This document shows, piece by piece, positions 1 to 55,667 of a stretch of 64,000 bases of DNA (the stretch's first letter is position 1; every line of letters starts with the position of its first letter). The DNA lies in contig NC_088302.1 of NCBI RefSeq assembly GCF_032854445.1, forward strand, positions 54,158,046 to 54,222,045, written 5' to 3'. A program made the translations under genes and the position numbers. Below the pieces are notes generated by a model. That model searched no databases, was not told the origin of the DNA, and saw only the letters and a list, made by a program, of their open reading frames with translations. The stretch is from Liolophura sinensis. Its lineage: Eukaryota > Mollusca > Polyplacophora > Chitonida > Chitonidae.

Positions 1-245
1 TTGATTGGTGTTTTACTCCAGAATATTTCACTTATACGATGGCGGCCAGCATTATGGTGGGAGGAAACCGGGCAGAGCCCGGAGGAAACTCACGACCATC
101 TGCAGGTTGCTGGCAGATCTTCCCACTTTCGGCCGGAGAGGAAGCCAGCATGAGTTGGACTTGAACTCACAGCGACCACATTGGTGAGAGGCTCCTGGGT
201 CATTACGCTGCGCGAGGGTGCTAACCAACTGAGCCACAAAGGCCC
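1..245 (-). mobile_element. tRNA-headed SINE (family 1), cut by window start
   Basis: The minus strand reads as a SINE. A tRNA-like head with A-box-like GGCTCAGTTGG lies near 220-240 and a B-box-like GAGTTCAAGTCC near 155-170. The body carries the GC-rich stretch around CCGGGCTCTGCCCGG, and the tail runs into AAACACCAATCAA at the window edge. The same body recurs at 8.8, 42.0 and 52.9 kb, which lets the family be recognised inside this window. The 3' tail end lies outside the window. Confidence 0.8.
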
Positions 246-575
246 CGATTATAGTTGTAAAGCTTACCTTCAAATTCAGCGAGAGAAATGAATCCTACTA
301 AAACGCGCGTTAAACCACAATTAAAACACCGTCCCTCCAAATAGAACCAAAGAAATTCCCATTCAATTCCGCCTGAATCCCACTATCGGCGTGCGCCAAT
401 CCCATTAAATGACTCCTTCAAATCTCACAAAGTGGGCCTGAATTCTAATTCAAATTGTTAGCACGCATGGACACTCCAAGGGTATTGGATAGGGAGTAGC
501 TGTACATGTTTAAACGTTTAATAAAGTTACAACAGGAAAAGGACGGTTGAAGGTCAGACAAAAAACCTAGAAGAA
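246..575. other. No gene seen
   Basis: AT-rich unique-looking sequence between a SINE and a minisatellite. No long reading frame, splice-site pair with coding similarity, or RNA fold was recognised. Confidence 0.5.
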
Positions 576-1045
576 TCCAGGAGACACGGCACGCATCAAG
601 GAAACACGGCACGCATCAAGGAAACACGGCGCACATCCAGGAAACACGGTACACATCCAGGAAACACGACACACATCCAGGAAAACATGGCACACATCCA
701 GGAAACACGACACACATCCAGGAAACACGGTACACACACAGGAAACACGGCACACATCCAGGAAACACGGCACACATCAAAGAAACACGGCACACATCCA
801 GGAAAACATGGTACACATCCAGAAAACACGGTACACATCCAGGAAACATGGTATACATCCAGGAAAAACGACATGCACCCAGAAAACATGGCATGCATCC
901 AGGAAATACGACACACATGCAGTTAAACACGTCACACATCCATGGTAACACAGCACACATCAAGAAAACACGGCACACAAAAAGGAAACACGGCACACAA
1001 AAAGGAAACACGGTACACAAACAGGAAACAAAACACAAATCAAAA
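576..1045. repeat. 20-bp minisatellite
   Basis: Tandem copies of GGAAACACGGCACACATCCA with point changes, roughly 23 copies. The copies decay at the right end, where CACAAAAAGGAAACACGG variants appear. Reading frames on both strands are open only because the unit is short and lacks stops; they do not look like protein-coding sequence. Confidence 0.9.
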
Positions 1046-1135
1046 CACAGGGAAAGCAGCACAAATCAAAGGACCACGTGCGCAAATTCAAAAAACAATA
1101 AATCCAAGATAAATAAGATATAATAGATCGGCATG

Positions 1136-1412
1136 AATTCCGGAATCATGGCACAAATACAGAGAACGGCATCAATTCCGGAATCATGGCACAAATACAG
1201 AGAACGGCAAGAATTCCGAAATCATGGCACAAATACAGAGAACGGCAAGAAGTCCGGAATCATGTCACAAATACAGAGAACGGCAAGAAGTCCGGAATCA
1301 TGTCACAAATACAGAGAACGGCAAGAAGTCCGGAATCATGTCACAAATACAGAGAACGGCAAGAACGCCGGAATCATGGCACAAATACAGAGAACGGCAT
1401 AAATACGTAATT
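1136..1412. repeat. 38-bp minisatellite
   Basis: About seven tandem copies of a 38-bp unit that contains CGGAATCATGGCACAAATAC and AGAGAACGGCA. The middle copies share an AGTCC variant for ATTCC, which suggests local expansion of a sub-block. Confidence 0.9.
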
Positions 1413-1944
1413 CACAACACAGACGAAACATTACGAAACAAACGTCAGCACAGTCAGTAACACTGAGTAAGGAATACAGGTGTAAGTGTCACCTTTACAA
1501 ATAAATAGATACCTTTACAAGACCCGGAAGCAGACATGCAGAATCAAGCATCAAAACATCCGCTGCCACAATGGAGAAAATGAAGAAAGTACTTCGCGTC
1601 ATTTTACACTTTCGTCATGATTCAACACAAAGTGAATAAAGACGACATATTACGTCGGATTACACGAAACTGCTTCACGTCAGAAATGCTCCTCCAGCTC
1701 CTTCTGAAGTACACTTCAACTCTTACCAACGTACACCTTCAGCTCTCACTAAAATACACCTACAAATTTCACTTCAATGGCGCCTTAAAGTGCGATAAAA
1801 ATACTACAAAAGTACGCCTTCACATCCAACTGAAGTATGTATCAAATCTTTCTGAAGGAGGTTTTCAACCGAACTGAAGTACAGTTGGCCTATGACTGAT
1901 AGTGTGAGAAGACATGAACACAGTAGGCCTACTTTTTGCCATTG
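1413..1944. other. No gene seen
   Basis: Unassigned sequence. From about 1680 to 1880 there are loosely repeated ACTTCAA/CTGAAGTAC motifs, perhaps an old decayed minisatellite. No coding or RNA signal was recognised. Confidence 0.4.
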
Positions 1945-2170
1945 GAGTCATGGTGGCCTAGTGGTTAGCATGCCAGTGCGGCGCAATGAACCAACGCTGT
2001 GAGTTCAAACCAAGCTCATGCTGGCTTCCTCTCAGGCCGAACGTAGGAAGGTTTACCAGCAAATTACGAATGATCGTGGATTTTCCCAAGGCTCTGCCCG
2101 GTTTCTTTCAGTCGTCATAAAAGTGAAATATTCTTGAGTACATCCTAAAACACGAATCAAATAAGTAAGT
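1945..2170 (+). mobile_element. SINE family 1, diverged copy
   Basis: Plus-strand copy with an A-box-like TGGCCTAGTGG, a B-box-like GAGTTCAAACC, the body ending AAGTGAAATATTCTTGAGTA and the tail AACACGAATCAAATAAGTAAG. It is clearly more diverged than the copies at 42.0 and 52.9 kb, so it is probably older. Confidence 0.75.
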
Positions 2171-2480
2171 ATATCAAAAAGGTGCCCATGGGAAAAAATG
2201 TCCTAAAAGAGAGGAAAAATTGAGAACGGCATAGTCTGGCGCGTGGAAAAAATATTGTTCCAGGTTAAATAATCCGGCAATAACATGTCCTGTACATTCA
2301 AATCTCATATGCAGAAAACAAAAGCAAGTCATATTTTTGGCGTAAGTTCAGTAGCAAACTGTACGATGCGAATTTATTTACATTAACATGATTAAAGGCA
2401 TTTTTGAGTAGCTTCTGTATCAGATTTGTAGTTGAAGTGACAGTTGGAAAAGCATGATTGTAGTTTATGTCAAATATATC

Positions 2481-4325
2481 AGATATCGATGAATGCCATG
2501 TTATTCTTCCACCCGTCTCACAGATATAGATGAATGCCATGTTAATTTTCCACCTGTCTCACAGATATCGATGAATGTCATGCTATTCTTCCACCTGTCT
2601 CACAGATATCGATGAATGTCATGCTATTCTTCCACCTGTCTCACAGATATCGATGAATGTCATGCTATTCTTCCACCTGTCTCACAGATATCGATGAATG
2701 TCATGCTATTCTTCCACCTGTCTCACAGATATAGATGAATGTCATGCTATTCTTCCGCCTGTCTCACAGATATAGATGAATGCCATGTTATTCTTCCGCC
2801 TGTCTCACAGATATAGATGAATGTCATGTTATTCTTCCGCCTGTCTCACAGATATCGATGAATGCCATGTTATTCTTCCACCTGTCTCACAGATATCGAT
2901 GAATGTCATGCTATTCTTCCACCTGTCTCACAGATATCGATGAATGTCATGCTATTCTTCCACCTGTCTCACAGATATCGATGAATGTCATGCTATTCTT
3001 CCGCCTGTCTCACAGATATCGATGAATGTCATGCTATTCTTCCGCCTGCTCACAGATATCGATGAATGTCATGCTATTCTTCCACCTGTCTCACAGATAT
3101 AGATGAATGCCATGTTATTCTTCCGCCTGTCTCACAGATATAGATGAATGTCATGTTATTCTTCCACCTGTCTCACAGATATCGATGAATGTCATGCTAT
3201 TCTTCCACCTGTCTCACAGATATCGATAAATGTCATACTATTCTTCCGCCTGTCTCACAGATATCGATGAATGTCATGCTATTCTTCCACCTGTCTCACA
3301 GATATAGATGAATGCCATGTTATTCTTCCGCCTGTCTCACAGATATAGATGAATGTCATGTTATTCTTCCGCCTGTCTCACAGATATCGATGAATGCCAT
3401 GCTATTCTTCCACCTGTCTCACAGATATCGATGAATGTCATGCTATTCTTCCACCTGTCTCACAGATATCGATGAATGTCATGCTATTCTTCCGCCTGTC
3501 TCACAGATATCGATGAATGTCATGCTATTCTTCCGCCTGCTCACAGATATCGATGAATGTCATGCTATTCTTCCACCTGTCTCACAGATATAGATGAATG
3601 CCATGTTATTCTTCCGCCTGTCTCACAGATATAGATGAATGTCATGTTATTCTTCCACCTGTCTCACAGATATCGATGAATGTCATGCTATTCTTCCACC
3701 TGTCTCACAGATATCGATAAATGTCATACTATTCTTCCGCCTGTCTCACAGATATCGATGAATGTCATGCTATTCTTCCACCTGTCTCACAGATATAGAT
3801 GAATGCCATGTTATTCTTCCGCCTGTCTCACAGATATTGATGAATGTCATGTTATTCTTCCGCCTGTCTCACAGATATCGATGAATGCCATGCTATTCTT
3901 CCACCTGTCTCACAGATATCGATGAATGTCATGCTATTCTTCCACCTGTCTCACAGATATCGATGAATGTCATGCTATTCTTCCACCTGTCTCACAGATA
4001 TAGATGAATGTCATGCTATTCTTCCGCCTGTCTCACAGATATCGATGAATGTCATGCTATTCTTCCACCTGTCTCACAGATATAGATGAATGTCATGCTA
4101 TTCTTCCGCCTGTCTCACAGATATCGATGAATGTCATGCTATTCTTCCACCTGTCTCACAGATATCGATGAATGTCATGCTATTCTTCCGCCTGTCTCAC
4201 AGGTATCGATGAATGTCATGCTATTCTTCCACCTGTCTCACAGATATTGATGAATGTCATGTTATTCTTCCACCTGTCTCACAGATATCGATGAATGTCA
4301 TTCTATTCTTCCACCTGTCTCACAG
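2481..4325 (+). repeat. 45 x 41-bp tandem array of 3' splice sites
   Basis: Each 41-bp unit reads AG|ATATCGATGAATGTCATG, then a pyrimidine tract CTATTCTTCCACCTGTCTCAC, then the next AG. The unit therefore copies the acceptor and first codons (D-I-D-E-C) of the EGF exon that begins at 4326. From the first unit (ATATCGAT at 2483) to the exon start is 1843 bases, which equals 45 x 41 minus 2. The two missing bases are the single-base deletions in CCTGCTCACAG near 3048 and 3539. Variants ATATAGAT and ATATTGAT also occur. A 491-bp higher-order block is duplicated inside. The array lies at the end of the intron before exon 1 of the visible EGF gene. Confidence 0.95.
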
Positions 4326-4460
4326 ATATCGATGAATGCCGTGACCTTTCGTCGCCTTGTGGCTCAAACTCGGAATGTACCAACACAAATGGCGAACACT
4401 ACTGTTCCTGTAAATTTGGATTCTCAAGTCCAGCTAGAAATGGAAGAAACTGCGTAACAG
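4326..4460 (+). CDS. EGF exon 1 (phase 1-1)
   Basis: The acceptor is the last unit of the 41-bp array (CTGTCTCACAG). Translation begins [13 protein letters not shown] and ends GRNCVTG. The donor is ACAG|GTGAAA; an alternative GTAACA just upstream would break the phase shared by the other EGF exons. There are six cysteines and the calcium-binding start D-I-D-E. It is the only one of the eleven without the Asx-hydroxylation aromatic residue ([10 protein letters not shown]). Confidence 0.88.
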
Positions 4461-7400
4461 GTGAAATTGAACATGGAGTTTGTAGGGAGTTTTTGTTTTA
4501 GGGCTTTCAGAAGTCTATATCTTCGAAGTACTGGACTTTAGACCTAGGTTAAGATATTAAGAGCTCTAAATGGATATCCATGGAGTTCGACTTCTGATGC
4601 ATGTGTAGGTATGCAAGAGAACAAAAAAGGGCACGACCTTCACTTCTGTGAATTAAGAACTAGTGGAAATTGCCAAGATTGAATAACTGTACTTTATATG
4701 ATCAGTTATCTGACAGACACGGTAAATATAAACTCAGTGGCATGCCAGAATTTTGACAGACCAACTATAGCACACACACGGTATTCAGTGCATTGATTGT
4801 GTTTTATATAGCATGTACTGTACTCAATGATTACATCTCATTTTTTTGCCAGATATGTAGCAAACATGATATCCATTGCAATGCATGGCACTTGTCAGAT
4901 TGTAATATAATTCGCCAACTATGTATCAGTGCAATGACGCTGCTATATATGTCAGACAAAGTATCCAAGACAATGATTCCACTTTATTTCTAGGTTTATA
5001 TTTATACGATAAATAAAATTTTGATTTTTCTGTCTATAGATAGGGTTAGTGAATGTCTACATGACATCATTTTTAAGCATATACCTCAGTAAGCTCTCTC
5101 ATTGAATGGTCTCGCATACCCACTGATAAATGACTGCGGAACTGGTGCACTTTTCGTGTTAGTGGAAGGTGAAATAGCGGGCCTTTTTCCTGTTTGAACA
5201 GTTACAGAGGAATGTTTGTCCAAACAAAATACATCATAGTACTTAATTCATTTGAGTGCTATTATCCAGAGTAAAGTGTGTAGGCGTATACGTTATAACA
5301 CTATAACAGTGGCCCCCTAGGAGATAATTGACATAGGACACGGGATATACCAGTAAGCAAATCGCTGTACAGACACACATGTTAAACCATCGTTTTCGAG
5401 CCAGCTTTCATTATTTTCCCACGCATCTTTGTCTAATTGTTTGTGAAGCACAGCGCCTGTAATTAAGAAGAACAAGGGTGGCTGTGATTGCATCACACGG
5501 GGCCAAAGAGGGGGTGCATGTGTTGTCCTTACAAACGGCGCTAGAAACCCAGTACAAACATATACAAGATATTAAACGTTCTTGAATACAAATAAATTCT
5601 GGAATGCAGATTTCTTATGTATTTTTTGATGATTCGCTAAGCAAGGGTTGTGATATATGTGGTAGAATTTTATTAAACTGAAAAAGGTGAATCAAGTCCA
5701 CAAATAAATACATTAGCATGACATTCTTCGTTTTACTTCGTTTTGCAGACATCGATGAGTGTGTAGTGCTACGTGACCCGTGTGGCCCTCACTCTGCCTG
5801 TGACAATACCTATGGCGGATACATTTGTACCTGTCTTAAGGGGTATTCCAGCCCGACACATGACGGTAAAAATTGCCAAGGTAAGATTTAAACAAAGCTG
5901 TCGTCAGCTTATATAATATCACAAAACTTTACCTACACTGATGGTGTTAACATTGTTCTAGGCGTACTTTACAGAAACTGCTGGTCTGAACATTGTTCAG
6001 TACGATCTTTACAAAGACTGTTGGTCTGAACATTGTTCAGTACGATCTTTACAAAGACTGTTGGCCTGAACATTGTTCAATACGATCTTTACAAAGACTG
6101 TTGGCCTGGACATTGTTCAGTACGATCATTACAAAGACTATTGGTCTAAACATTGATCATTACAAACTTTAGACAGACTGTTGGCCTAAACATTGTTCTA
6201 GGCGAGCTTTACAAAGTCTGTTGATCTTAACATTGTTCAAGTCGAGCTTTACAAAGGCGGTTGGTCTAAACATTGTTCAGTACGATCTATACACAGACTG
6301 TATTTGTAAAAATTGTTTAATGTGTGCTTAACATACATAATTGACCTAAACATTGCTCAAAGCGAGCTTTGAGTAGACCGACGTTTTGATTGCTCAGTAA
6401 GATCTGTACATAGACTTTTGGTCTGAACATTGTTGTAAACTAATGTTCGAAGGACTATAGATCTAATCATTGTTCGCCACGATACAACAGCAATATTGAC
6501 GATGCGACGTTGTTCCATAGTCATCCATTCATTGTAATCATTGCTATAAACAGATTTACAAATTCTATTTGTTTTTCACTTATTCCAGAGATAGACGAGT
6601 GTGAGAGCACCGAGGCTGTGTGCGGAGAGAATTCTGTGTGTACAAACTTCGGAGGAGGTTACAGCTGCTCGTGTTCACTTGGGTTCGTCAGTGAGTCACG
6701 GGACGGAACCCATTGCACAGGTAATTCAGCGAGATTCCATAAAATGACATAATTCCTGACTATATAAAATAAAAACGCTTTTATGTTTTATTCACCAATG
6801 AATGTTTCAAAAATATATCTATGATTTGTTAATATTTGATCACTAGACGTGTAATTCATGTATAAACCTGTTGAATCAGAACCTCAGCTAATCATTATAT
6901 TGGCTCCACTCTTTGATACAATTGGGTTCATTAATGGACCATGCACTTTTACTCTGAGATCGAATAGCCATGTTGCCAGCTTAGCTTCCACATTAACCGC
7001 TCTGAGATCGATCAGCCGTGTTCCGAGCTTAGCGTCCACATTAACCGCTCTGAGATCGATCAGCCGTGTTCCCAGCTTAGCTTCCGCATTAACCGCTCTG
7101 AGATCGATCAACCATGTTCCCAGCTTAGCTTCCACATTAACCGCTCTGAGATCGATCAGCCATGTTCCCAGCTTAACTTCCACATTAACCGCTCTGAGAT
7201 CGATTAACCATGTTCCCAGCTTAGCTTTCACATTAACCGCTCTGAGATCGATTAGCCATGTTCCCAGCTTAGCTTCCACATTAACCGCTCTGAGATCGAT
7301 CAGCCATGTTCCCAGCTTAGCTTCCACATTAACCGCTCTGAGATCGATTAGCCATGTTCCCAGCTTAGCTTCCACATTAACCGCTCTGAGATCGATCAGC

Positions 7401-10400
7401 CATGTTCCCAGGTTAGCTTCCACATTAACCACTCTGAGATCGATCAACCATGTTCCCAGCTTAGCTTCCACATTAACCGCTCTGAGATCGATCAGCCATG
7501 TTCCTAGCTTAACTTCCACATTAACCGCTCTGAGATCGATTAACCATGTTCCCAGCTTAGCTTCCACATTAACCGCTCTGAGATCGATTAGCCATGTTCC
7601 TAGCTTAACTTCCACATTAACCGCTCTGAGATCGATTAACCATGTTCCCAGCTTAGCTTCCACATTAACCGCTCTGAGATCGATTAGCCATGTTCCCAGC
7701 TTAGCTTCCACATTAACCGCTCTGAGATCGATCAGCCATGTTCCCATCTTAGCTTCCACATTAACCGCTCTGAGATCGATCAGCCATGTTCCCATCTTAG
7801 CTTCCACATTAACCGCTCTGAGATCGATTAGCCATGTTGCCAGCTTAGCTTCCACATTAACCGCTCTGAGATCAATCAGCCATGTTCCCAGCTTAACTTA
7901 CACACTAACCGCTCTTAATTAATCTGTGTGGATCGTTACATTCACTAACTTGGAGCTCGGTACTGTGGCCTGCACTGCATCAAAAAGTGCAGTATTAAAA
8001 CAATAATCAACGGGTTTATCTTTTCCGGAGTACACGTAAGGTGGATTCGATTCAAAAATTCGATTGGAGAAGGTCGGCTGGCCGACGACACACCAGTCAT
8101 ATTCATATCAAATCTGAGGTTATGACCTTTAGCATTCCTAAATAAGTAGGTGATATGAAGTAAGAATTACTTCGAAAATACATAAACTTCACAAACATAT
8201 ATGTTTTTGGTGTTTTACCCGGCACTCAAGAATACAGTAGTCAGAGGAATACCTTCAGGTGAATGCCGGTTTAAAGCTGGCTGAGTGCAAACATAGCCAC
8301 ATTCCCTCCCAGGTACCTTGCAAACTCTGTAATGTACGAGGCTTTCGTCACCTAAAAGTTGATTCAATGGAAGACCATCTTTGTGAGGACTAATTGTTTG
8401 TAGCGACTTTGTTAGCAGAGCAAACAAAACCCCTGACCAACGACCGTCGCGTTCCAGTCCAGCTCTCTAAGTTGTGGCTTTGTAGTGCGAAGTTATCCAC
8501 TCACCCAACCACCGCATGGTATAAGTGAACAACTCATGAGGACTACCAATAATTATATTAATAACGTCATGGCGTGATTGTCTATATAGTGCTGAGATAA
8601 TCATTCTCCTGTTTAAAAAAATACACAAACAATTACATTGTCAAGTGTGAAAATTGAAACTGTCTTTTTGAAAAACAGTGAATAGAGGTCATTTCCTATT
8701 TAAGAGGAATACACCATCATCGTAACACCTCCCGCCTCCCTAGAATTTGGGCACGACTTACGGCTATAAGAGCAAGATGTCGCCACATAAACAACAGCCC
8801 TTCGCACCATTGATCACTGTTCATATACAAATGTAGGGTTGTAACAGAGGCTCAGTCGGTTAGCGCGCTAGCGCAGCGTAGTGATACAGAAGGCTCTAAC
8901 CAGTGCGGTCCAGCTCATACTGGTTTCCTCTCCGGCCGTAAGTGGGAAGGTCTTTCAGCAACCTGCGGATGGTTGTGGGTTTCCCCCGGGCTCTGTCCGG
9001 TTTCCTCCCATCATAATACTGGCAGCCGTCGTATAAGTGAAATATTCTTGAGCACGGCGTAAAACACCAATCAAATAAATAAATAAATAAACTGTAACAG
9101 AGCTTCACAATGTACACGCGCATAAAAACACGTTTACAGTACCATAATGTAAATCTTCTATACCCTGTTAGTAGACTGAGTTAGTGGAAAAGAAGAATTA
9201 AGAAACATCAATAATGGCGTCATGCTGAACAGTTTGTTTTCTGATTCTTTTCATCTCCTCCCAACCCCATCCGTCGGGTTGAATAAATGAAACGTGTGTA
9301 GACCTAAAGAACAATGAAAGAAAGATATCTAAAAATATGATCTATTGCAGATATCAACGAATGTGTGGAAGACGTGTCAGTGTGTGGTCAGAATGCGGAG
9401 TGTATCAATGTGGTCGGAAGTTACGGCTGTGCATGTGTTATTGGATATACGCCTATGGACACAAGTTGTCAAGGTGTGTCCAACTGCTCATTATCCGAAG
9501 CAACAGGATTAGGTACAAAAACGAATGAAATCAAAGGAATGGCCAATGGTTAAAGTCTATTCCAAGGATAGTTGAAGTAAGAGTGTTTGCTCAAACAGAT
9601 TTGGTATTTCTCAGTTGAGGGGAAATGACGTTAGAATTCCATAACTATGCACTCCAATCGTCATTTAAACGTTGAAAACACATCTGTTGAGCAAAATGTC
9701 AGTTGTTATTTCTGCTTGTTTTCATCAGACTTCTGTAATAACTTTCATTTATTTATCTCGACATATCTGAAATACTGAAACTGTGACGTTCAGTCCCAGC
9801 CATTCATTCATTACTTTCCAAAAGAGATAGTTCGCTAAATAATATAAAAGCTTTGAACGATATTTTGGCCAAAATTACGTAGCGTACTCATCATTAGCCA
9901 ATGATCAGAAAATACGATCAGGATAAAGTCAAAAGTAAATTTGACATGGCTAACCACAGAACCCTTTCGCACTGGAGGCTGTTTGCTAGTTTCCAAACGG
10001 TCATTATGTATGTGATCAAAAGAATGCAATTGTCTAAACTGGTCAACCATATTCATTATTAACCAACTTACTGTGAAATTGGCAAATAATGAAATAATAT
10101 GAAGCTTTTCGATGTGGCTATAATGGGATCAGAGTGTGGTATGTGTTAACTGTTTGACTGTTCTTCAGATCGATATTATTTTCGCCTCTGTGCAGATATA
10201 GACGAATGTTCTGCCGCCATCTCACCATGTGGGCGGAACTCCACGTGCTCGAACAACAATGGCAGCTTCCGGTGTACGTGTGAGGCGGGTTACGCCAGCT
10301 TTAGGCAGGACGGCAGAGAATGTTATGGTGAGTACAGTATTAGAAATAAATACCGGAGACAGTAGGAAAATATCGTTTTCAACATTTACTCCAGTTGTTA

Positions 10401-13400
10401 TTCTTTCATCCAACGTATCAAAAATGATAAATGAACGAAGGTTGTCAGTCATTCAGGTACATTACTTACATATTTGTGTTTAATGTCAGAAATATTCACT
10501 TCAGGCAGTGTTGACCTCACGCATTTCGTGCAATTTCAAACATCTGTGTTTTCTGTCAGAATTTATATACAATTGCTAAATATATCAGTATAGGGTTCGA
10601 ACCAAAGGAATAAATGCAAACTTAGTTTCTTCATTTTTTCGAGTGTCAATGAATAGAATGACCATGCAATGAAATCTTTGTTTTCGCTGTAGATATTGAC
10701 GAATGCGCCGAACTAGAGTATCCATGTGGAGATAACTCTGTCTGCCTTAACTACGACGGAGGGTATCAGTGCAAGTGCCTGGATGGGTACTTTGATACGT
10801 CTGTTGACAACAAGAACTGTAAAGGTAGACTGTAGTTCTTTTTGACAGTGTTAACCTGTTGCTGTCACATATGTTTTTGTCCTTGGATTTTCGCAAATCT
10901 TGATAACAAAACGCTTTCCTTAAAAGGCGAAAGCGCAAAGAGCTTTGAAAAGATGCTTTTCTGTTTTCCGTTTTCAATTCCTTAATTATTCTGTGGACTT
11001 TAACCTCATAACTTCATACCGGTTTCCTTCCTTTTCTTTTGCACTTACGTGTGTGGTGTTATATGTGAGAGGGTTTTCCCCAAAGGTTACGACTGAAATT
11101 CATAAACACCTTTTCTGTGATTCATTCATACCTTCTCTGTTATTCATTCATACCTTCTCTGTAAATCATTCATACCTTCTCTGTAAATCATTCATACCGT
11201 CTCTGTAATTCATTCATACCTTCTCTGTCATTCATTCATACCTTCTCTGTAAATCATTCATACATTCTCTGTAAATCATTCATACCTTCTCTATAATTCA
11301 TTCAAACCTTCTCTGCAAATCATTATACCTTCTCTGTAATTCATTCATACCTTCTCTGTAATTCATTCATACCTTCTCTGTAAATCATTCATACCTTCTC
11401 TGTAAATCATTCATACCTTCTCTATAATTCATTCATACCTTTTCTGTAATTCATTCATACCTTCTCTGGAATTCATTCATACCTTCTCTGTAAATCATTC
11501 ATACCTTCTCTATAATTCATTCAAACCTTCTCTGTAAATCATTATACCTTCTCTGTAAATCATTCATACCTTCTCTGTAAATCGTTCATACTTTTTCTGG
11601 AATGCATTCATACCTTTTCTGGAATTCATTCATACCTTCTCTGTAACTCATTCATACCTTCTCTGTAAATCATTATACCTTCTCTGTAATTCATTCATAT
11701 CTTCTCTGTAAATCATTCAAACCTTCTCTGTAAATCATTCATACCTTCTCTGTAAATCATTCATACCTTCTCTATAATTCATTCATACCTTCTCTGTAAT
11801 TCATTCATACCTTCTCTGTAATTCATTCATACCTTCTCTGTAATTCATTCATACCTTCTCTGTAAATCATTCATACCTTTTCTGGAATTCATTCATACCT
11901 TTTCTGGAATTCATTCATACCTTTTCTGTAAATCATTATACCTTCTCTGTAACTCATTCATACCTTCTCTGTAAATCATTATACCTTCTCTGTAAATCAT
12001 TATACCTTCTCTGTAAATCATTCATACCTTCTCTGTAAACCGACGAACACTTAATCACTAATCATATTTATGAAATGATAATAATCTGAATAACCCAATA
12101 GTTTGTTGTACATCTAAGCTGTGACTGTTCTGTTTGTAGATGTAAATGAGTGTATGGAATCACGCCATAGCTGTGGATCTCATTCCCGCTGTGTGAACGT
12201 GGACGGAGCATACTCCTGTATGTGTCACAGTGGCTTCAAAAGGCGAGCCCAAAATGGAGACTGTGAAGGTAAGCCCAAATCACACAGATCTGCGATGACC
12301 GCTTCTGTGGCTTAATGGATAGAGCGTCTGCCTAGACGTGGGGAGACCCGGCATCCAGTAATACCAAAGAAATAAATAATGGCACTTCTTGCTGCCTCGC
12401 TTGGCGCTCAGCGCTGAGTGGTTAGGGCAAGGAAATATGGCTGGTTGGCCTGTTGTGGGTATAGTGTTGCTGGGTGGGGTGTCATGTCAGCCGGCAGCCC
12501 TTTGGCGCCATGGACTCGCCCTGCCACAATAAGAAACAGTATATTATCACACACCTAATGGCTCCTCGTCGTCACATGACGTAAAACCCCAAGCATACAT
12601 GCAAACATAGATACATTGTACCATTTCCATGCGTACAACAGGCCTTCTGAATAAGTATATCAGCGTCATGTCCGACATTCATATACCATTGTAGTCCGTA
12701 AAGGGCGTTCCCTTTACGAATTACTAGTAGTATTTGGACATAAATGAACTCGCAGTAATCAATCCTGATCCATGAGTTAAAACTGGATGGTGTCTCCAGG
12801 TTACCTCGCACAACGTATGCTTAAAGTAAAAGAAAGCTAAAACCGTAAAATAAAGTTCGTTAGACGGACAACTAAAAACTGTGAACAAAAAAAAATTTTC
12901 ACTTAGTTTATCAATTGATTTAGTTAATCAAGAATATTTCACTTATACAACGGCGGCCAGCATTATGGTGGAAGGAAACCGGGCAGAGTCCCCCGACCAT
13001 CGACCCACGACCATCCGCAGGCTGCTGAAGGACCTTCCCACGTACGGTCGGAGAGGAAGCCAGCATGAGCTGGATTTAAACTCACAGCGACTGAACACTG
13101 TTAAACGCATTATTGAAACTACTGAATTCTATGGTGAACTGTATGGACCACACTGTCTGTGGCAGTACCCAAACATCATCTATCTGGTTCATTTTATTGC
13201 ACTTAATTGTCTTGAAATAATTGTAATTTTTATTCATGGTTTTCAATTGTCTGTCTGACGAACCGTATTTCATTTTTGGCTTACTTTCACCTTAAAGTAG
13301 GATTCAGAAAGTTCACTTTTTATATTTTCAAGAATATTTCATTTTCAAGATTTTCTAATATACACCGGGTCTCATGGAAAGCCTTTAACAAAAGAGAGGA

Positions 13401-16400
13401 TTGTTATGTTATCTTCACCCAGAGAGCTGATTTCAGTTTACGAGATAATACAAGCTAAGTACCGGGCATCCTGTGGGTGGAATGCATTGTGTGGATACCG
13501 CTGTAAATGTGGTCAACCATTCTGTTGTTGACGTGAATGAGTGTGAGGAGTACCGGGCATCCTGTGGGCGGAATGTAGTGCATGGTTACTGCTGTAAATG
13601 TGGTCAACCATTCTGTGGTAGATGTGAGTGTGAGGAGTAACGAGCATCCTGTGGGCAGAATGCAGTCTGTATAAACCATATCGGGGATACCGCTGTAAAT
13701 GTCAACCATTCTGTTGTAGATGTGAATGAGTGTGAGGAGTATCGGGCGTCCTGTGGGCGGAATGCAGTCTGTTTAAACCACATTGGGGGATACCGCTGTA
13801 AATGTGAGCCGGGTTACAGCATCCGGAATCCGTTGGGAGAGAACTGTGATGGTAATGTAGATGAATAGCTGGACAAACCTTTCAAACATGAGTACAGGGA
13901 ATGGTAGCCTAACAGAATGAAATAGTGAATGCATGGTTCAGTGGAATAAAATGCTTCCAGTTACTAATTTATTTAATTTTCTCAAATTATTATTAGTTTG
14001 CGCCATATTATAATCAAAAACAGAAAAAGTTCAGACGCGATTTGGTTATGTATTAATTATAGATGATATATATTAATAATATTTGCACCGCTAATTAAAT
14101 GACAGAGTGGATTAAAACGTTACGTTTGAGACTAATGGTCCTTGTAGTAAGGACACTTAGCTTTTGTTTTATGTTGAAATCAGATCTTTATATTATCAGT
14201 TAAGTTTTACATCACTCTGATGTCTGTTTCAGTATATTATTTGTTTTGAATTAAACAGTTCACATTCGATTGAAACTCGTCTTGAAGACGTGAACTACAC
14301 TTTTAGTGAAACACTTACACTCTGCTCATTATTTTCAGTCGGAATTTACTAGCATTTTTGCCTTGTACATTGCTAACAATTGACAAGTCAAATGCATACC
14401 GCCTTTTCCGCATTTCAGACGTGGATGAATGCGAAGACAACCCTTGCGGTCCGGGCTCAGAATGCGTGAACTACCCAGGAGGATATGTATGCAAGTGTGT
14501 ACGTGGTCACAGCAGCGTAGTGGCGGATAACAGTCACTGTACAGGTGGGGTACTAGAATGTGTGAACTATCACGGGCGATATGTGTGTACATTTACTTCG
14601 CTACAGCAATGTGGTGGAAGATAACAGACACTCTACAGGTATTAGAATGTGTGAGCTACCCAGGGGGGATATGGGTGTAAATGTTCACGTGGTCACAGGA
14701 GCGTGGTGACGGATGACAATCACTGTACATGTACTAGAATGTGTGAACAGGGGGGATATAGGTGTAAATGGGCATGTGAACTACTGTGTGTAAATGAATG
14801 CCGGGCCTACTAGAACTTGTGTTTACTGTAGCCTGCATGCTACATCACGTACAATTACACATTTCCATGTATTTCAGTGTTGTTCTGTTTCAGATGTTAA
14901 CGAATGTCAGTTTATCGGGATTTGTCACGAGAACGCCACGTGCCTGAATGTAGAGGGCAGCTATGTCTGCACATGTAAGGCCGGCTTCACTGGAAACGGG
15001 GTCAACTGCACAGGTGTGATTGCTTCTGTTTTAGGAAATACAATCTTTACCATGTTATATAGCTTAATTTATATCAGTTTTCCCCCACCAAGCTAATAAA
15101 AATCACCGATGATTCGACCGCTTCTTTTCTGATGTTTTATTCTCTAAGCAAAAAGCAGTTTCATTCTCCTCAGGCATAAGCACAAACCTGTTGCAAGAAA
15201 CCTGCGGAAATATTTTGGCCAATGTCAGTTGAAATAGCAAGTTGCACTCAATTTATGAGTCTTAAAGATGATTGTCTTTCAGTGACTAGGGCGCACGAGC
15301 TGCGGGTACAAACCCGGCCTTTGAATTTGTAGATTCCCCTGATCCCTCTGCTTGTTGGGACCCTGCTGGCAATAAACTTTCGACGACGCTCGTGTGGCCG
15401 TTTGTTTAGTCCAACATTCACTGAAGACCACTCATCTTCAGTATATGTACTGCGTATATGTACTACATCTGTACATGTGGCATCTGTGGATGTGGCATCT
15501 GTGGATGTGGCATCTGTAGATGTGACAAAGCTCGTCAGGAACTTGCCAAAGTTTCCTCCATCGATACAGATAAATGTCATCGTAAACAAATTCTTGAGTA
15601 TGACGTTAAGCAACAATCAAATAAATAAATTTGTTCGTCGTCCTTACAACCTGCATGGAGACACTTTAGGCCACAACTTTTAATGAAGCGACCTTCGTCC
15701 CTTTTCTGTTTCAGACATAGATGAATGTGTCGTCAGTAATGGATCAGCCTGTGGCGTTCACGCGACCTGTATAAATTTGGAGGGTAGCTTTGACTGCGTG
15801 TGTGCGGGAAATGCCTTATATAGTGATGATGACGGGACGAACTGCTCAGGTATGAATATACGGCGGTGTGATAAGTTGTGGGTTTGGATTACTGTTCCTG
15901 TAATTTTTGTGCTAACGGGATATCCGAGGTACAGGGTGGTGTCAACCAAGATGCTTGTACATACAACATTTCCGCCTGCTTTGAACAGAATGGATTGTCT
16001 AGTTTTGACATCGCTATACTGCCAGTGATACAAAACGGACAAATTGCTTTCCGCATTCGGCCACACCGCTGAATGTATGAACCCACATTTACAAACCTTT
16101 GTAAATCTATTTTTTATTACTTTTGTCGTAGATCAGTTTTGTGAAAGTGGCGCCATCGCTCTGGTCAGGGGAGGTAACTGATTCTGATCTATCAAAGACG
16201 TCGAAAGACTAAGCCCGGATTCCAGGTTGTCCCCCGTCCTATTCTTTGACTAATAACCTTGATGACTTGTAACTACATGTGTATTTGTCAAGTATCTCTT
16301 TCTCTTCCCGCCTTGATTGTCTACAACTACTCAAGCCCCATGTGTCACTTTTACAGATTTGACAGATAAAAACAGAGATGGCGGATCGACAATTCGTGGA

Positions 16401-30000: not shown

Positions 30001-31301
30001 TTGAGGTTGTGAGTCTGTACGTATTAATATGCATTGATTAAAAGTCCAATCTATTTATTACGTAATTTATTACTTTTACAATAGGCCATGGGTTTGTTAT
30101 CACTCTGCTGCTCATTAAAAGAATTTCTGGTATTTTGGTTAGTTCTTGGTATTTTTGGTTAGTTTTTGGTATTTTGGTTAGTTTTCGGTATTTCTGATTA
30201 GTTATATTGTTTTAACTATTCACCGGCTGTTTGTAGAAATTATTTGTGGACACTTAAGAAGAAACCGACACTTGTCAAAGAAGCTCTTAGGTTTGTACAC
30301 TGTTAAACTGTTTGTGAGCTGCAGAAGAGCACGTGAGCGATGTAAACTATGGGCGCGTGGCATTCAGTTATTTGTCGGTACAATACACTTGAACACTGTA
30401 TTCGAAAAAGAATACGATGTACGTTGTAAAACACTGTTGCTGAAAATTCCAAAACAAATGTCAGAACACGTCGCCTACAATCGGCGTCTTTGAGAGGTTG
30501 TCAGTAATATCCCAATTTAAGCTTTGACTTTAATTGTGGAATAGAGATTTTGAAACTTCGCATGGTAGTTAATTAATATCCCTACAAACTGTATAATGTG
30601 TTTGCAGATGATCGTTACTCAAAGCACCCGCCACGCCCTTTGTCGTACTCTAACTGCGTTTTCTTTGTATTAATATTAATTAATATTGTGTGATGAGTCT
30701 TTTGTTATACATAACCTGGCAGCTGAATGCATTTATTTCCTATGGGCCCGTTTCAATGTTAGCTTGACTTACTTGTGTCTTCATATGGGTGGAACACCTT
30801 GTGGCTTGGGTAGGGCAGAGGGGGTACTTCTGGCTGTCCACGGTGATAATCGGGCTCAGGTTGGTGAGGCCAAGCGTAACGATCGTACTTCGGGTAATGC
30901 TCATACGGGTGAGGTTTGTACGGGTACGCATGTTCCGCTGGGTAACCGTGGTAATAGTCTGCGTGATGATCGTACGGGTCAGGCTTGTACAGGTAAGGGT
31001 GGCCCGGATAATACCCAGGGCGGTGGTCGTATTCATCATGTGGATCTATCCACGGGTGAGGAGGAGGAGGGTGATGAAAATCGTGATGAGACGGTTCATA
31101 ATGACGGTAGGGGTGAAGATGATCAGGGTGAAGTGGATCGTCTTCGGGGTGGTCTACTACTGGCTTGGGCCTGGGCCCGTGCTTCGTGTCCCACAAAGGG
31201 TTGTCTGGAATCCTCAGAGCCAAACACGATCCCATTAAGCCCAAAATGGTAGTAAACGCTGTCAGTCCCATCTTCCCTGCTTTACGGTGTCCCTGAAGCA
31301 A
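27027..31301 (-). CDS. Gene B: secreted Pro/His/Tyr protein with Cys/Trp module (5 exons)
   Basis: Exons on the minus strand: 31301-30773, 29737-29553, 28967-28810, 27879-27692 and 27097-27027. The total of 1131 bases encodes 376 residues. The start may be the inner Met at 31271 (MGLTAFTTILGLMGSCLAL), because that signal peptide is what paralogues C, D1 and D2 share. Exon 1 then codes for a Pro/His/Tyr/Asp-rich region (HHDFHHPPPPHPW, YYPGHPYLYKPDPYDHH). Exons 2-5 encode the module also in A: CEWRVVFKAVAGNHHSVYED, LDRWDHIIVPKVKVELF, VWFIFDGLGS, NRFFITRELN, CVEDCGFLAVVD, then DEVQYADRFVISVNLC. Exons 2 and 3 have exactly the lengths found in gene A; exon 5 has exactly the length found in gene E. 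A conserved TATA box lies upstream. Function unknown; probably an extracellular structural or binding protein. Confidence 0.88.
27180..27580. repeat. CACCTCTGATCAGTTCTAAC repeat in gene B intron 4
   Basis: About 15 irregular copies of a 22-24 bp unit. It is interrupted at 27213-27270 by a reversed SINE family 1 tail (TTATTTGATTGGTGTTTTAC), so that insertion came after the array formed. Confidence 0.8.
27692..27879 (-). CDS. Gene B exon 4 (188 bases)
   Basis: Acceptor TTCATTTTCAG, donor CATG|GTAAGT. Codes DAAEQNRFFITRELNEDC, then VEDCGFLAVVD and TDTCGLYQSH. Confidence 0.87.
27905..28235. repeat. 24-bp minisatellite in gene B intron 3
   Basis: About 13 copies of CATCACACCACAGCATTTCT plus ATAC between exons 3 and 4. 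Confidence 0.9.
28810..28967 (-). CDS. Gene B exon 3 (158 bases)
   Basis: Acceptor TGTATTTCAG, donor TAGG|GTGAGC. Codes VKVELFVHGVRGVWFIFDG through GEFQFYSIVG. Confidence 0.87.
29005..29160 (-). mobile_element. SINE family 1 fragment in gene B intron 2
   Basis: The reversed tail (TTTATTTATTTACTTGG) and body as far as CCCACTTACTGCCGGAGCGG are present; the tRNA-like head is missing. Confidence 0.75.
29553..29737 (-). CDS. Gene B exon 2 (185 bases)
   Basis: Acceptor ACTGGTTTCAG, donor AAAG|GTTTGT. Codes TPGCEWRVVFKAVAGNHH through LDRWDHIIVPK. A decayed partial echo of this exon's start appears at about 29795-29880 in the intron (GACGATTACACGCCACGGCT, CACTCACAGCCACTCAAGAC), perhaps an old local duplication. 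Confidence 0.87.
30100..30210. repeat. Short TTTTGGTTAGTTTTTGGTAT repeat
   Basis: Four to five copies of an 18-20 bp unit in gene B intron 1. Confidence 0.75.
30773..31301 (-). CDS. Gene B exon 1 (signal peptide and low-complexity region)
   Basis: Donor ACAA|GTAAGT. The signal peptide is followed by LRIPDNPLWDTKHGPRPKP and VVDHPEDDPLHPDH, which align with the start of genes C, D1 and D2 (IPDHDAFWETG..PRPIVDN in C). The rest is Pro/His/Tyr/Asp-rich. The antisense frame of 188 codons is a shadow. Confidence 0.87.
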
Positions 31302-31394
31302 ATGTGCAGGCCCTAGATGGAGGCTTACTACAACACCACACTCCTCTTCTGGGTGTCCACTGCCAGCTTGTTATTTTGCTTCATGGTGTGTCCA

Positions 31395-37984: not shown

Positions 37985-38578
37985 TTAGTGACCACCATAA
38001 GGCAGGTACGGGTAATGACTATATGGCTTGTACGGGGTGAAAGGATATTTATAGCCCGGATAGTGCTGGGGGTAGGGTCCGTGCGGATAGTGTTCGTAGG
38101 GCAGGTATCCGTAAGGGTATTGTTGATAAGGGTAGTGCCGATCGTGCGGGTAATGGTAAGCCGGAATGTGCTTGTCAAAAGGTCCGTGGGGATAACGCCC
38201 GTATAGATATTCGTCCAGCGGGGAATGGTGGGTTCCGTGTGGATATGGGTGATAGGGGTAGCTCTGCTGACAAAATCCACAAGGCTTATGGTAGTTAGGG
38301 AAGTATTCGTGATGTCCATATGGGTCATAGGTGGGGTGACTGATACCCGGTGCGTTGTATGGCTGATCAGGATGGTCGAATGAGTGGAAGGAGTCGGAAT
38401 AGTGAAGGTCGTCTTCTCCATTATCCACTATTGGCCTCGGAACACCTGTTTCCCAGAAAGCATCGTGGTCTGGAATCCCCAGAGGGAAACACGGCCCTAT
38501 CAGCCCAACAAGTGCTACAAATGCTGTCAGCGTCATTCTCTCGACCTTATGGCTCGCTGATGTATGCGTACAGACCAC
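37985..38578 (-). CDS. Gene C: secreted Tyr/Pro/His-rich protein, single exon
   Basis: The frame encodes 197 residues, or 183 if translation starts at the Met at 38536 (MTLTAFVALVGLIGPCFPL), which is the part shared with paralogues. After the signal peptide the protein is about half Tyr, Pro and His, with irregular HYPY, YPHGP and PYEHYPHGPYPQHYPG motifs, and ends YKPYSHYPYLPYGGH. A single CGFC motif lies near the middle. No donor was found before the stop and no module exons downstream, so this is a module-less paralogue of B. The TATA box at 38627 gives a short leader. Likely a secreted structural protein whose tyrosines could be cross-linked; that role is inference. Confidence 0.82.
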   Translation of the reverse strand: MVCTHTSASHKVERMTLTAFVALVGLIGPCFPLGIPDHDAFWETGVPRPIVDNGEDDLHYSDSFHSFDHPDQPYNAPGISHPTYDPYGHHEYFPNYHKPCGFCQQSYPYHPYPHGTHHSPLDEYLYGRYPHGPFDKHIPAYHYPHDRHYPYQQYPYGYLPYEHYPHGPYPQHYPGYKYPFTPYKPYSHYPYLPYGGH

Positions 38579-38626
38579 GATGCAGGATACAGTACCAACA
38601 TGCTATTTTGCATAGAAACGCCTCTG

Positions 38627-44779: not shown

Positions 44780-45140
44780 ACAGGCTCAAAGACAACAAAA
44801 AAGGCACTGTAGAATCATTCAAACCTTTCAGTACGATGTGTTTATTAATACAACAGTTAAACTGATATCCAGATATCTATGAACAATTTTTGTACAAACG
44901 TTATATGTTTATGTTACCATGAAATGTTATTTGAACTAAAAGGTATGAAAGATCAATGAATGGTTCAATTCTGAGTAAAAACAAATGGTTCTCTTTGGTG
45001 ACGTGGTAAAACTGTAATCCTTCGCCCTCTGACATAAGAACTGGTGTTCAACAAGTACTCTAGCACAGAATTGCTGCAGTACTGCTCATTTTAATGTATT
45101 CACTATGTCGGAACTGTGCTCGAGTGTGAGTTCTTCGTCA
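44780..45140 (-). other. Duplicated 3'-flank block (copy of 50.25-50.53 kb)
   Basis: This stretch and 50250-50530 share ordered blocks: CTGAGTAAAAACAAATGGTT / CTGAGTAAAAACGAATAGTT, TAATCCTTC, AGCACAGAATTGCT / AACACAAAATTGCT, and GGAACTGTGCTCGAGTGTG / GGCACTGAACTCGAGTGTT. The second copy lies 0.8-1.1 kb beyond the D1 stop. This copy may be what remains of another family member. Confidence 0.5.
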
Positions 45141-50530: not shown

Positions 50531-51308
50531 TCTTTTCTTTTTTAATAATCGATCAGCCAAGAAACAGAAATCATAGAGAATATACCACATATTGCAAAAC
50601 GAGGACATAATAAAGGCAGTCTTCAGTTCACATTGAAAATGTCCATACAGTATTTAATGGTGATGTTAATACCATGACCAAGCCGAATACAACTGTTAAT
50701 AATTCTAACAAACACTCTACATTGTATACATTGAATATACATAAGGATGGAAAAGGTTTGACTTACAGAGAGAAAACTCAATTTACGTTCAGATTAAGTG
50801 CTCCATATTGGTTTTGCCACAAAAAGAAGTATTTAAAGTTCTAGTCATAAGTTTCACGACATTCATTGCAAAACTTTAGTTGTTCCACACTAAGATCTGT
50901 CCTATATATATTGTCCAGTGTTTCATCATATAAAAATCCCAATGCTCGTTATATTTATTGAAGACAATTTGTCCAGAAATGTTTCTTGGCCTGGTGTACA
51001 AAGTTGATAAATATTGTCTCAAATAATTAAATAGGTCTTGACTTCCACAAGGTGTACACGGGGACCCACCACCACCCCCACAGATAACACAGGCGTACAT
51101 GGTAGTCTTGTTTTACCGTGTTTTCTCTGTCAGGTATACAGGTCGGCGTTACAAAGTGCTCCGTTAAGTCCACAAAGAGCAGACCACAACTTACAGATAA
51201 AAATTCACAATGCCTTCATTTAAAAAAACTCGACAAAATGTCAATCCGGCTGTAGTAAAACTTGTACTTCATGAAAAAGAGCAAAACGGTAAAGCTGACA
51301 AAAGTGAA

Positions 51309-51989
51309 CTAATTAGGGTCTTCCGGATTCTCACTTGCCTGATTTGTATGATAACCGTAGTGATGGCCATAAAAAGGGTAGTTGTAGTGAGGATTCCAGG
51401 GATAGTCAGCACGTTGGTTCGGATAGTATCCATGGTGATTTCCGTACATCTGATATCCGTATGGGTGGTGGCCCGGATAGTGCTCTGGAAAGGAATCCGT
51501 ATGGGTTGTGCTGGTAGGGTTCGTGTCCGTATGGGTATTGGTACCCCGGATAGTGCTGTGGATAGGATCCGTACATGTAGGGCTGGTGTCCGGATAGGTA
51601 TTGCTGATCGTGTGCGAATATGCTGCATCGGGAAATAGCTGTGGTGGGATCCGTACGGGTAATGCTGGTAGGGCTGATGTCCGCACGGATATTGAGGATG
51701 CGGGTAAAGATTCAGGTATGAGCCGAGCAGTCCATGGTCGTACGAGTTATAATATCCAAATTTGTCATATGAATCGTATGGGTAATTAAGAAGCGGATTG
51801 TACCCGTGCGGGTAAGGATCTATGTCTTGGTGATCTACCACAGGATTCGGTCCAGGGGCTTCTCCTCCAGAAGTCCTCACTGAATGGAATCGCCAGAACC
51901 AAACATGGTACTACCAGTCCTACTATAGCGACAAACGCTATCAGCTTCATTCTCTCCACCTTATGATACCCTGAAGTAAGTATGAACAC
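51309..51989 (-). pseudogene. Gene D1: Tyr-rich paralogue broken by frame changes
   Basis: The signal peptide (MKLIAFVAIVGLVVPCLVL, Met at 51950; an outer Met at 51989) and IPFSEDFW read in one frame. Near 51858-51870 the family text continues in another frame (PGPNPVVDHQDIDPYPHGYN, HQPYQHYPYGSHHSYFP). Near 51615-51635 it passes to a third stretch (HQPYMYGSYPQHYPGYQYPY, GHEPYQHNPYG), and near 51487-51500 to a fourth (HYPGHHPYGYQMYGNHHGYY) ending SENPEDPN and TAA/TAG at 51309. Each piece keeps the Tyr/Pro/His character only in its own frame; the alternatives read as Thr/Ile/Arg-rich. Three indels are needed, so this is a pseudogene or a spot of indel errors in the assembly. The promoter looks intact. 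Confidence 0.72.
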
Positions 51990-54714: not shown

Positions 54715-55608
54715 TTAATTTTCCTCGGTTGTGTCGGTATCTCCATTACGGTGCAGATTTTGACACGGGCACCAGTAAGTCTTTTTATGCCCGTAGTGAT
54801 GTTGATAATAATCGAGGTTTTTGTAATCATCAGGGAGATGTTCGAACGGGTAACGATGATCCGAGTAGTAAAGGTTGTAAGGATAAAGGTCGTACGGGTC
54901 ATGATGATCGAAGTTGTACACGTTGTAAGGATAATGGCCGTATGAGTAACGGTGACCCGAGTAGTACACGTTGTAAGGATAATGGTGGTACGGATCATGA
55001 TGATCGAAGTTGTACACGTTGTAAGGATAATGGCCGTAAGGGTAACGCTGACCCGAATAGTACACGTTGTAAGGATAATGATTGTACGGGTCATGATGCT
55101 CGAAGTTGTACTCGTTGTTAGGATAATGGTCGTACGGGTAGCGATGATCGGAGTTGTAGTCATTATAAGCATGCTGTTTGTACGGGTAGCTATGATCGGA
55201 GTTGTAGTCATTATAAGCATGCTGTTTGTACGGGTAGCTCCCGTGGTAACCGTTAGAATTATCATCGTACGGGTAAGGCCTGTGCGAGTCCTGCTGATCC
55301 GAATTGCGCTCGAGGAAGGGTTCGCGCGGTTGTTGCTCGTAGGTGTTACGATGATCAGGGTAGTATTCGCCATATGGATCTGTCAAAGGATCGTCTTGGT
55401 GATGAGAATCGAGATCCTGCGGGAAGAAAGCGTGACTACTGGGGTCCTTTTCTGGATGGTCGATTGTTGGCATATTTTCTCCATCAGTTAAAATCTCTTT
55501 ACTTGGTATCCTTAGAGCCAAACATGGTCCTACCAGCCCTACAATAACGGCAAATGCTGTCACCTTCATTTTCTCCACCTTACGGCACTCTGAAGGAAGT
55601 ATACACAC
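54715..55608 (-). CDS. Gene D2: secreted Tyr/His/Asp-rich repeat protein, single exon
   Basis: The frame encodes 297 residues, or 284 from the inner Met at 55569 (MKVTAFAVIVGLVGPCLAL), which is the start shared with the paralogues. Residues about 30-110 are acidic and Pro-containing (IDHPEKDPSSH, DLDSHHQDDPLTDPYGEYYP). Residues about 125-280 are built from short repeats: two copies of SYPYKQHAYNDYNSDH, then a 32-residue unit containing HYPYNVYNFDHHDPY and YPYNVYYSGHRYSYG. The unit corresponds to a 96-bp DNA repeat (GATCGAAG at 54906 and 55002 on +). The C-terminus has a C-P-C motif. No downstream module exons were seen. Clusters of His-His-Asp next to Tyr could bind metal, and the tyrosines could be oxidised; both are inference. 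Confidence 0.85.
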   Translation of the reverse strand: MCILPSECRKVEKMKVTAFAVIVGLVGPCLALRIPSKEILTDGENMPTIDHPEKDPSSHAFFPQDLDSHHQDDPLTDPYGEYYPDHRNTYEQQPREPFLERNSDQQDSHRPYPYDDNSNGYHGSYPYKQHAYNDYNSDHSYPYKQHAYNDYNSDHRYPYDHYPNNEYNFEHHDPYNHYPYNVYYSGQRYPYGHYPYNVYNFDHHDPYHHYPYNVYYSGHRYSYGHYPYNVYNFDHHDPYDLYPYNLYYSDHRYPFEHLPDDYKNLDYYQHHYGHKKTYWCPCQNLHRNGDTDTTEEN

Positions 55609-55660
55609 CTTCTCTGGAGGCTGCAGTACACACTTCCTTTTCAGCTTGATAACGCCTCTG

Positions 55661-55667
55661 TTTTATA
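55661..55667 (-). promoter_or_regulatory. TATA box of D2
   Basis: The minus strand reads GATGCTATAAAACAGAGGCG, the same context as gene C, 53 bases before the outer Met. The homologous promoter continues upstream (GTTTAGAAAACAA), but the distal 19-bp element is degenerate here (near 55870). Confidence 0.8.

Follow-up and report, generated by a model that had tools for sequence, protein, structure and literature searches.

Tandem repeats that cross exon-intron boundaries have been described in amphioxus as mirages. Many, not necessarily all, of their units carry splice signals (PMC3087553, PMC3902484). These accounts report concerted evolution inside the arrays with the boundary units excluded, length instability between haplotypes and somatic cells, and regular splicing that is left undisturbed (PMC3087553, PMC3902484). 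The units measure 10-72 bp in Adh3 and 150-160 bp in the globins, where BflGb6 haplotypes carry 6 and 3 units (PMC3087553, PMC3902484), and TnC and PGBD5 are given as further cases (PMC3902484). A general route by which minisatellites are born, that of Haber and Louis, is described as starting from short flanking repeats of 5-10 bp (PMC6947457). In a mollusc, a length-variable 27-bp minisatellite has been found in an abalone intron; the passage describing it does not state that it spans a boundary (PMC6905558). The sources returned by our literature search, which was not exhaustive, place boundary minisatellites in amphioxus only, and none was found for molluscs.

Here we describe an array of this kind in the mollusc Liolophura sinensis. 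The window, the whole stretch of DNA that was analysed, covers 64,000 nucleotides (contig NC_088302.1, positions 54,158,046 to 54,222,045). Part of a gene with EGF repeats, on the forward strand, lies in its first 16 kb (1-16 kb). We found 11 EGF_CA exons in this gene, from 4326-4460 to 15715-15849, and their joined translation matched Pfam EGF_CA in 11 stretches (E-value 6.3e-93). The exons are consecutive, all 11 have a length that is a multiple of three, and all are of phase 1-1, as in a calcium-binding EGF exon array. The first of them, E1 (4326-4460), is 135 nt long with the donor CAG|GTGAAA at 4461. Six further exons follow at 5749-5880, 6589-6720, 9351-9473, 10196-10327, 10693-10824 and 12140-12268, then E8 (13720-13851), E9 (14419-14544, with its real donor CAG|GTGGGG at 14545), and the last two found, at 14894-15013 and 15715-15849. 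Outside the window, an EGF exon precedes E1 at -453 to -316 in window numbering (Pfam EGF_3, E-value 4.3e-7), with a phase-1 donor at about -315. Spliced across an intron of 4,641 bp to 4326, this exon gives the stop-free reading ...FYCE|DIDEC..., and E1 is the only in-frame continuation. This phase-1 donor and stop-free junction show that the reading phase assigned to the gene in a preliminary description of the window was correct.

Immediately before E1 lies a minisatellite of 45 head-to-tail units (2483-4325, forward strand). Splitting at CACAG, which closes all 45 units, yields 43 units of 41 bp and two of 40 bp, 1843 bp in total. TRF places the array at 2480-4338, with a period of 41, 45.4 copies, 94% matches and a score of 3242. 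The units have a mean identity of 0.963 to their consensus, ATATCGATGAATGTCATGCTATTCTTCCACCTGTCTCACAG, and fall into 16 distinct types, with 11 of the 41 columns varying and 30 invariant. Unit positions 1-18 agree with the start of E1 at 16 of 18 sites, and the next 23 nt, compared without gaps, at 6 of 23. The intron end, in the form that it has in the final unit before 4326, takes up positions 19-41. A unit is thus made up of about 16-18 nt of exon start and about 23 nt of intron end, a pyrimidine-rich tract with a terminal CACAG. To the left of the first unit, just 10 of 23 nt agree with the intronic half, and the layout is therefore (exon start + intron end) x 45, followed by the exon. At this left edge (2460-2482), an AG at 2481-2482 follows unrelated sequence and has a weaker context of its own (acceptor score 6.3).

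The preliminary description had read the repeat as an amplified exon boundary, with one 3' splice site in 45 copies and a unit holding a pyrimidine tract, the acceptor AG and the first exon codons. The TRF result, the CACAG split and the comparison of the consensus with the start of E1 bear this out, and the span is indeed 45 x 41 minus two 1-bp deletions. The extent needs correction at one end: 45 units do run to 4325, but the first begins at the exon-like start 2483, and the AG at 2482 stands apart from it.

Within the array, a block duplication (2881-3984) pairs 2881-3493 with 3372-3984. The two blocks are offset by 491 bp, or 12 units, and agree at all but 2 of 613 bp, with a perfect run of 440 bp. 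This 12-unit duplication is a sign of recent length change. Unit types that occur once are found in units 1-2 and 43-45 and also in some inner units. A genome search with a 420-bp array query matched six places, all within the array; this search skips very common words and could have passed over copies elsewhere. Unit 43 alone (4195-4215) reads CTCACAG|GTATCG. Its AG|GT junction resembles a recursive-splicing (zero-length exon) site and is probably a single substitution.

The locus shares with the amphioxus mirages a tandem repeat across an exon-intron boundary, with splice signals in many units: an AG ends all 45 of them, and 43 of 46 candidate sites score 9.4-10.2. Both have boundary-spanning units, at acceptors or donors, with AG or GT signals in many and the real exon as the end copy, and where amphioxus shows length change, the recent block duplication is an indirect sign of it here. 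They differ in copy number, as the Liolophura array with its 45 units of 41 bp far exceeds the 6 and 3 units of the globin haplotypes, and in the material analysed, which included RNA in amphioxus and was genomic DNA here. We conclude that it is most likely a mirage-type boundary minisatellite, near-neutral and of large copy number. The Haber-Louis layout, (repeat + spacer)n + repeat, suits both the left and the right edge of the array, although the flanking repeat here is the 16-18 nt or so of exon start, as against the 5-10 bp of that route. The human gene 6-16/IFI6 (G1P3) reportedly has a minisatellite whose units are splice donors, with multiple donor sites in the transcript. There as here, minisatellite units are splice sites, but the units at 2483-4325 are of the acceptor type, and only the last acceptor keeps the frame (45 of 45 upstream AGs break it), which sets the array apart from the 6-16/IFI6 type.

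To compare the copies, we used an acceptor weight matrix trained on 90 distinct EGF_CA acceptors of the same genome, with four acceptor-array cases excluded. The score takes in exon bases 1 and 2, where EGF_CA exons show codon bias. The last acceptor (4325) scored 9.6, and 26 of the 46 sites, itself included, equalled or exceeded this value. Besides the 43 sites at 9.4-10.2, the AG next after 2482 scored 8.8, bringing 44 of the 46 into the range 8.8-10.2. The low-scoring sites are 2482 (6.3) and 4202 (2.5); the latter value is probably due to the following G and in part probably an artefact of the codon-biased exon bases. Real EGF_CA acceptors had a median score of 11.2 and a 10th percentile of 6.4, and of the 164 AGs that precede the array only the one at 2423, with 9.7, was as strong as the real acceptor. 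The copies are thus nearly equal acceptors, as had been proposed, and the last one is unmarked by local sequence. The AG preceding 4325 lies 41 nt upstream, and real acceptors here have a median AG-free stretch of 30 nt. The last unit thus has room for a branch point that serves 4325. The AG columns are invariant, as are 30 of the 41 columns in all (P = 0.53 for two given columns). Selection on the AGs would be consistent with their invariance at the 45 unit ends, but this invariance does not speak for it.

Upstream of the last acceptor there are 45 AGs, namely 2482 and the 44 unit ends from 2523 to 4284. Reading from the phase-1 donor into each of them met a premature stop in all 45 cases, and 4325 alone kept the frame, in agreement with the earlier statement that only the last copy works. 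The stops were CGA TGA (21), ATA TAG (15), AGA TGA (5), CGA TAA (2), TAT TGA (1) and GCG TAA (1). The last of these arises from the nearest upstream acceptor, one unit away; its TAA lies at 4455-4457, where a wrong-frame stop near 4457 had been predicted. For two or more units upstream, the preliminary description had CGA TGA as the stop. All of these readings do end early, but CGA TGA accounts for only 21 of the 45. Later exon junctions lie downstream of the early stop in all 45 alternatives. Stops come cheaply, since an out-of-frame TGA lies within the GAT GAR of the EGF_CA start, and upstream AGs read in two sister arrays described below likewise lead to stops (9 of 9 in L022, 2 of 2 in L010). 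Because the sister arrays behave in the same way, the universal stops are no special design. The use of acceptor 4325 itself is predicted from the reading frame.

Two more arrays of the same gene adjoin exon boundaries. In a second acceptor mirage (13458-13719, forward strand), the intron end and most of E8 recur in three copies that have diverged; two are complete and the third is partial. TRF gives periods of 91 and 102 for the array, which occupies 13458-13666 beside the acceptor 13720. Its upstream junction at 13530 has no AG, and the one at 13621 has an AG that leads to stops, so the AG is lost in one of two. TRF and reading of the sequence further revealed a donor-side mirage with copies of the E9 3' end (14545-14770, forward strand). 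At 14639 this mirage has another donor-like sequence, CAG|GTATTA, which has the wrong phase and comes after a stop. We compared 24 array units, typed from 53 TRF rows with overlapping rows and several short arrays left out, with 22 exon boundaries and 100 shuffles. Three arrays lay well above the shuffles, those at 2480, 13458-13666 (E8 acceptor) and 14459-14770 (E9 donor), each beside its own exon. A boundary origin was rejected for the remaining tested arrays; the one at 45135 was equalled by 1 of 100 shuffles, the top-scoring one, and is far from the gene.

Boundary arrays were also found in other genes. Our survey covered 90 of 150 EGF_CA places, these scored from 1,495 candidates in the 609-Mb genome; the best 30 were taken with flanks of 1500 bp and 60 more, chosen down the list, with 500 bp. 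An AG was missing from the expected position in four of the 90 exons, and nine had no donor passing the filter. Arrays spanned 3 of 86 acceptors, one of which is that of E8 in the gene of the 45-unit array, and 1 of 81 donors. The acceptor mirage L022, in another EGF gene (31 bp x 35.8; locus 402-1509, exon at 8815384 of G000:C8), keeps the AG in 25 of 28 upstream copies in register and has lost it in three, two of which adjoin the real acceptor. Copies at the end of an array, like these two, tend to diverge anyway. L010 (48 bp x 13.6 + 34 bp x 3.1; locus 802-1517, exon at 84415287 of G000:C1) has a more diverged 48-bp part with some decayed AGs and a 34-bp part that adjoins the exon; the AG is missing in 3 of the 11 upstream exon-start matches listed. 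Both have the layout (exon start + intron end)n + exon, as in the 45-unit array. On the minus strand, the donor-side mirage L047 (127 bp x ~2.5; G000:C13:17471343-17472468, locus 274-593) has an apparently intact donor, ATAG|GTAAGA, in its second copy. A search for array-free DNA paralogues of three array-bearing exons, those of the 45-unit array and its sister arrays, returned self matches only.

Arrays do not detectably seek exon boundaries, as their placement shows no excess there. Nine arrays, merged and with the short array 1707-1772 left out, make up 35% of positions 1-16000. Three of the nine touch a boundary, compared with 3.66 expected at random (P(>=3) = 0.85). Across the survey, a mean array coverage of 5.1% predicts about 4.4 of 86 acceptors and about 4.1 of 81 donors, close to the 3 and 1 observed. 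Special targeting of boundaries was therefore rejected. Acceptor arrays occur at 2 of 11 exons in the gene of the 45-unit array and at 2 of 85 elsewhere (Fisher p = 0.063). Array density accounts for the boundary arrays, and those that reach an exon can survive, the last copy being the real one.

We consider it likely that the array is a mirage minisatellite grown by slippage and unequal exchange, whose last acceptor is chosen by exon definition and which has no dedicated function. It would have originated as a short tandem duplication across the 3' splice site and been enlarged by slippage and unequal exchange. Such growth would be tolerated, as the last copy remains attached to an undamaged exon, and splicing there should give a normal protein whatever the copy number. 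Given near-equal local signals and a branch point that fits the last unit, the choice should fall at branch-point/U2AF recognition. There, the last acceptor would be picked by exon definition, through the whole of E1 (135 nt) together with the donor at 4461. Local signal strength, nearly equal among the copies, would not decide the choice, nor would first-AG scanning from a branch point before the array, which would select 2482. Work by Reed and Maniatis in 1986 is said to have dealt with exon sequence and proximity in splice-site choice. Any mis-spliced transcripts would meet early stops and presumably be removed by nonsense-mediated decay, and the array would serve no dedicated purpose. As a counterpoint, some splicing into upstream copies is expected under first-AG and co-transcriptional models. 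The preliminary description had left two possibilities, a spliceosome that reliably picks the last AG or an intron that makes many non-productive transcripts; the former is the likelier.

The origin of the unit could be read differently. If the first ~44 nt of the exon alone had been duplicated and the non-coding copies had decayed into a pyrimidine tract, the AG at 2482, weak and at the left edge, would be the ancestral acceptor, and the splice site would since have moved 1.8 kb downstream. The array does start exactly at an exon-like start, without a copy of the intron end on its left (10 of 23 matches), and the best of six gapped comparisons between the intronic half and the next exon bases was matched by 25 of 2000 shuffles. 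However, the other five comparisons were matched by 36, 59, 191, 198 and 720 of 2000, which makes the similarity weak, and a short dispersed duplication of the exon start with unequal exchange explains the same edge. This origin would be incompatible with an array-free relative or allele having the intron end CTTCCACCTGTCTCACAG; our search yielded no array-free DNA paralogue. On balance, we regard an exon-only origin as unlikely. Also conceivable is that the decoys lead to frequent skipping of E1 and that in-frame skipping buffers the effect of the array. With 135 nt, phase 1-1 and an upstream donor of phase 1, skipping E1 keeps the frame, yet its EGF pattern is intact, and we find frequent skipping rather improbable.

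The upstream copies might instead act as copy-number-dependent poison acceptors, used in splicing to give products that are removed by nonsense-mediated decay, so that array length tunes gene output. This would accord with scores of 8.8-10.2, within the range of real acceptors, at 44 of the 46 sites (6.3 and 2.5 at the other two), with the early stop and downstream exon junctions of all 45 alternatives, and with the CACAG at the end of every unit. We nonetheless hold it to be very doubtful. The AG invariance is not special, AGs have been lost in the sister arrays, the out-of-frame TGA of GAT GAR makes stops cheap, and amphioxus mirages are reported to splice normally (PMC3087553, PMC3902484). 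The earlier suggestion that copy number may tune expression found no support: 30 of 41 columns are as invariant as the AGs (P = 0.53), AGs have decayed at the 13720 array (1 of 2), in L022 (3 of 28) and in L010 (3 of 11), and arrays lie at boundaries no oftener than chance. Competition in vivo between the last acceptor and the 45 upstream of it, with array length setting the productive fraction as a copy-number-tunable control of expression, is highly improbable. One amphioxus mirage is described as aberrantly assembled in the genome draft (PMC3087553), and an error in the assembly could likewise have produced this array or its length. Against this stand the irregular order of the 16 distinct units, their single-base variants, the length of the contig (58 Mb) and similar arrays elsewhere in the genome, and we deem such an artefact extremely improbable. 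The mirage minisatellite without dedicated function is thus the reading that we retain.

As such, the array is a natural test of 3' splice-site choice, with dozens of locally near-equal acceptors of which one is productive. Arrays of about 36 and about 17 copies in other genes of the same animal provide further tests. If the last copy alone is used, exon context and not local acceptor strength decides. The array also suggests that boundary minisatellites, which the papers found report only from amphioxus, recur in a second genome, where they might contribute to longer introns or to the birth of new ones.

Other repeats and genes were observed in the window. Between two EGF exons lies a 48-bp array of about 20 copies (6952-7915). 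Both of its strands have open frames (355 and 337 aa), which a unit length divisible by three permits, and it is probably non-coding. A dispersed SINE-like element with a tRNA-like head occurs at 1-245, 1949-2165 and 12930-13100, and we take it to resemble a molluscan SINE. Beyond the EGF gene, a cluster of His/Tyr/Pro-rich, secreted-looking proteins is encoded on the minus strand at 30759-31370, 37985-38602, 54715-55662 and perhaps 51269-51910. A Pfam scan of the cluster ORFs at 37985 and 54715 and of an ORF at 22399 gave no match. The proteins of the cluster have a common leader like MKVTAFAVIVGLVGPCLALRIP, and a 48/96-bp minisatellite (54838-55206) lies inside one of their coding regions, where the repeat would be translated.
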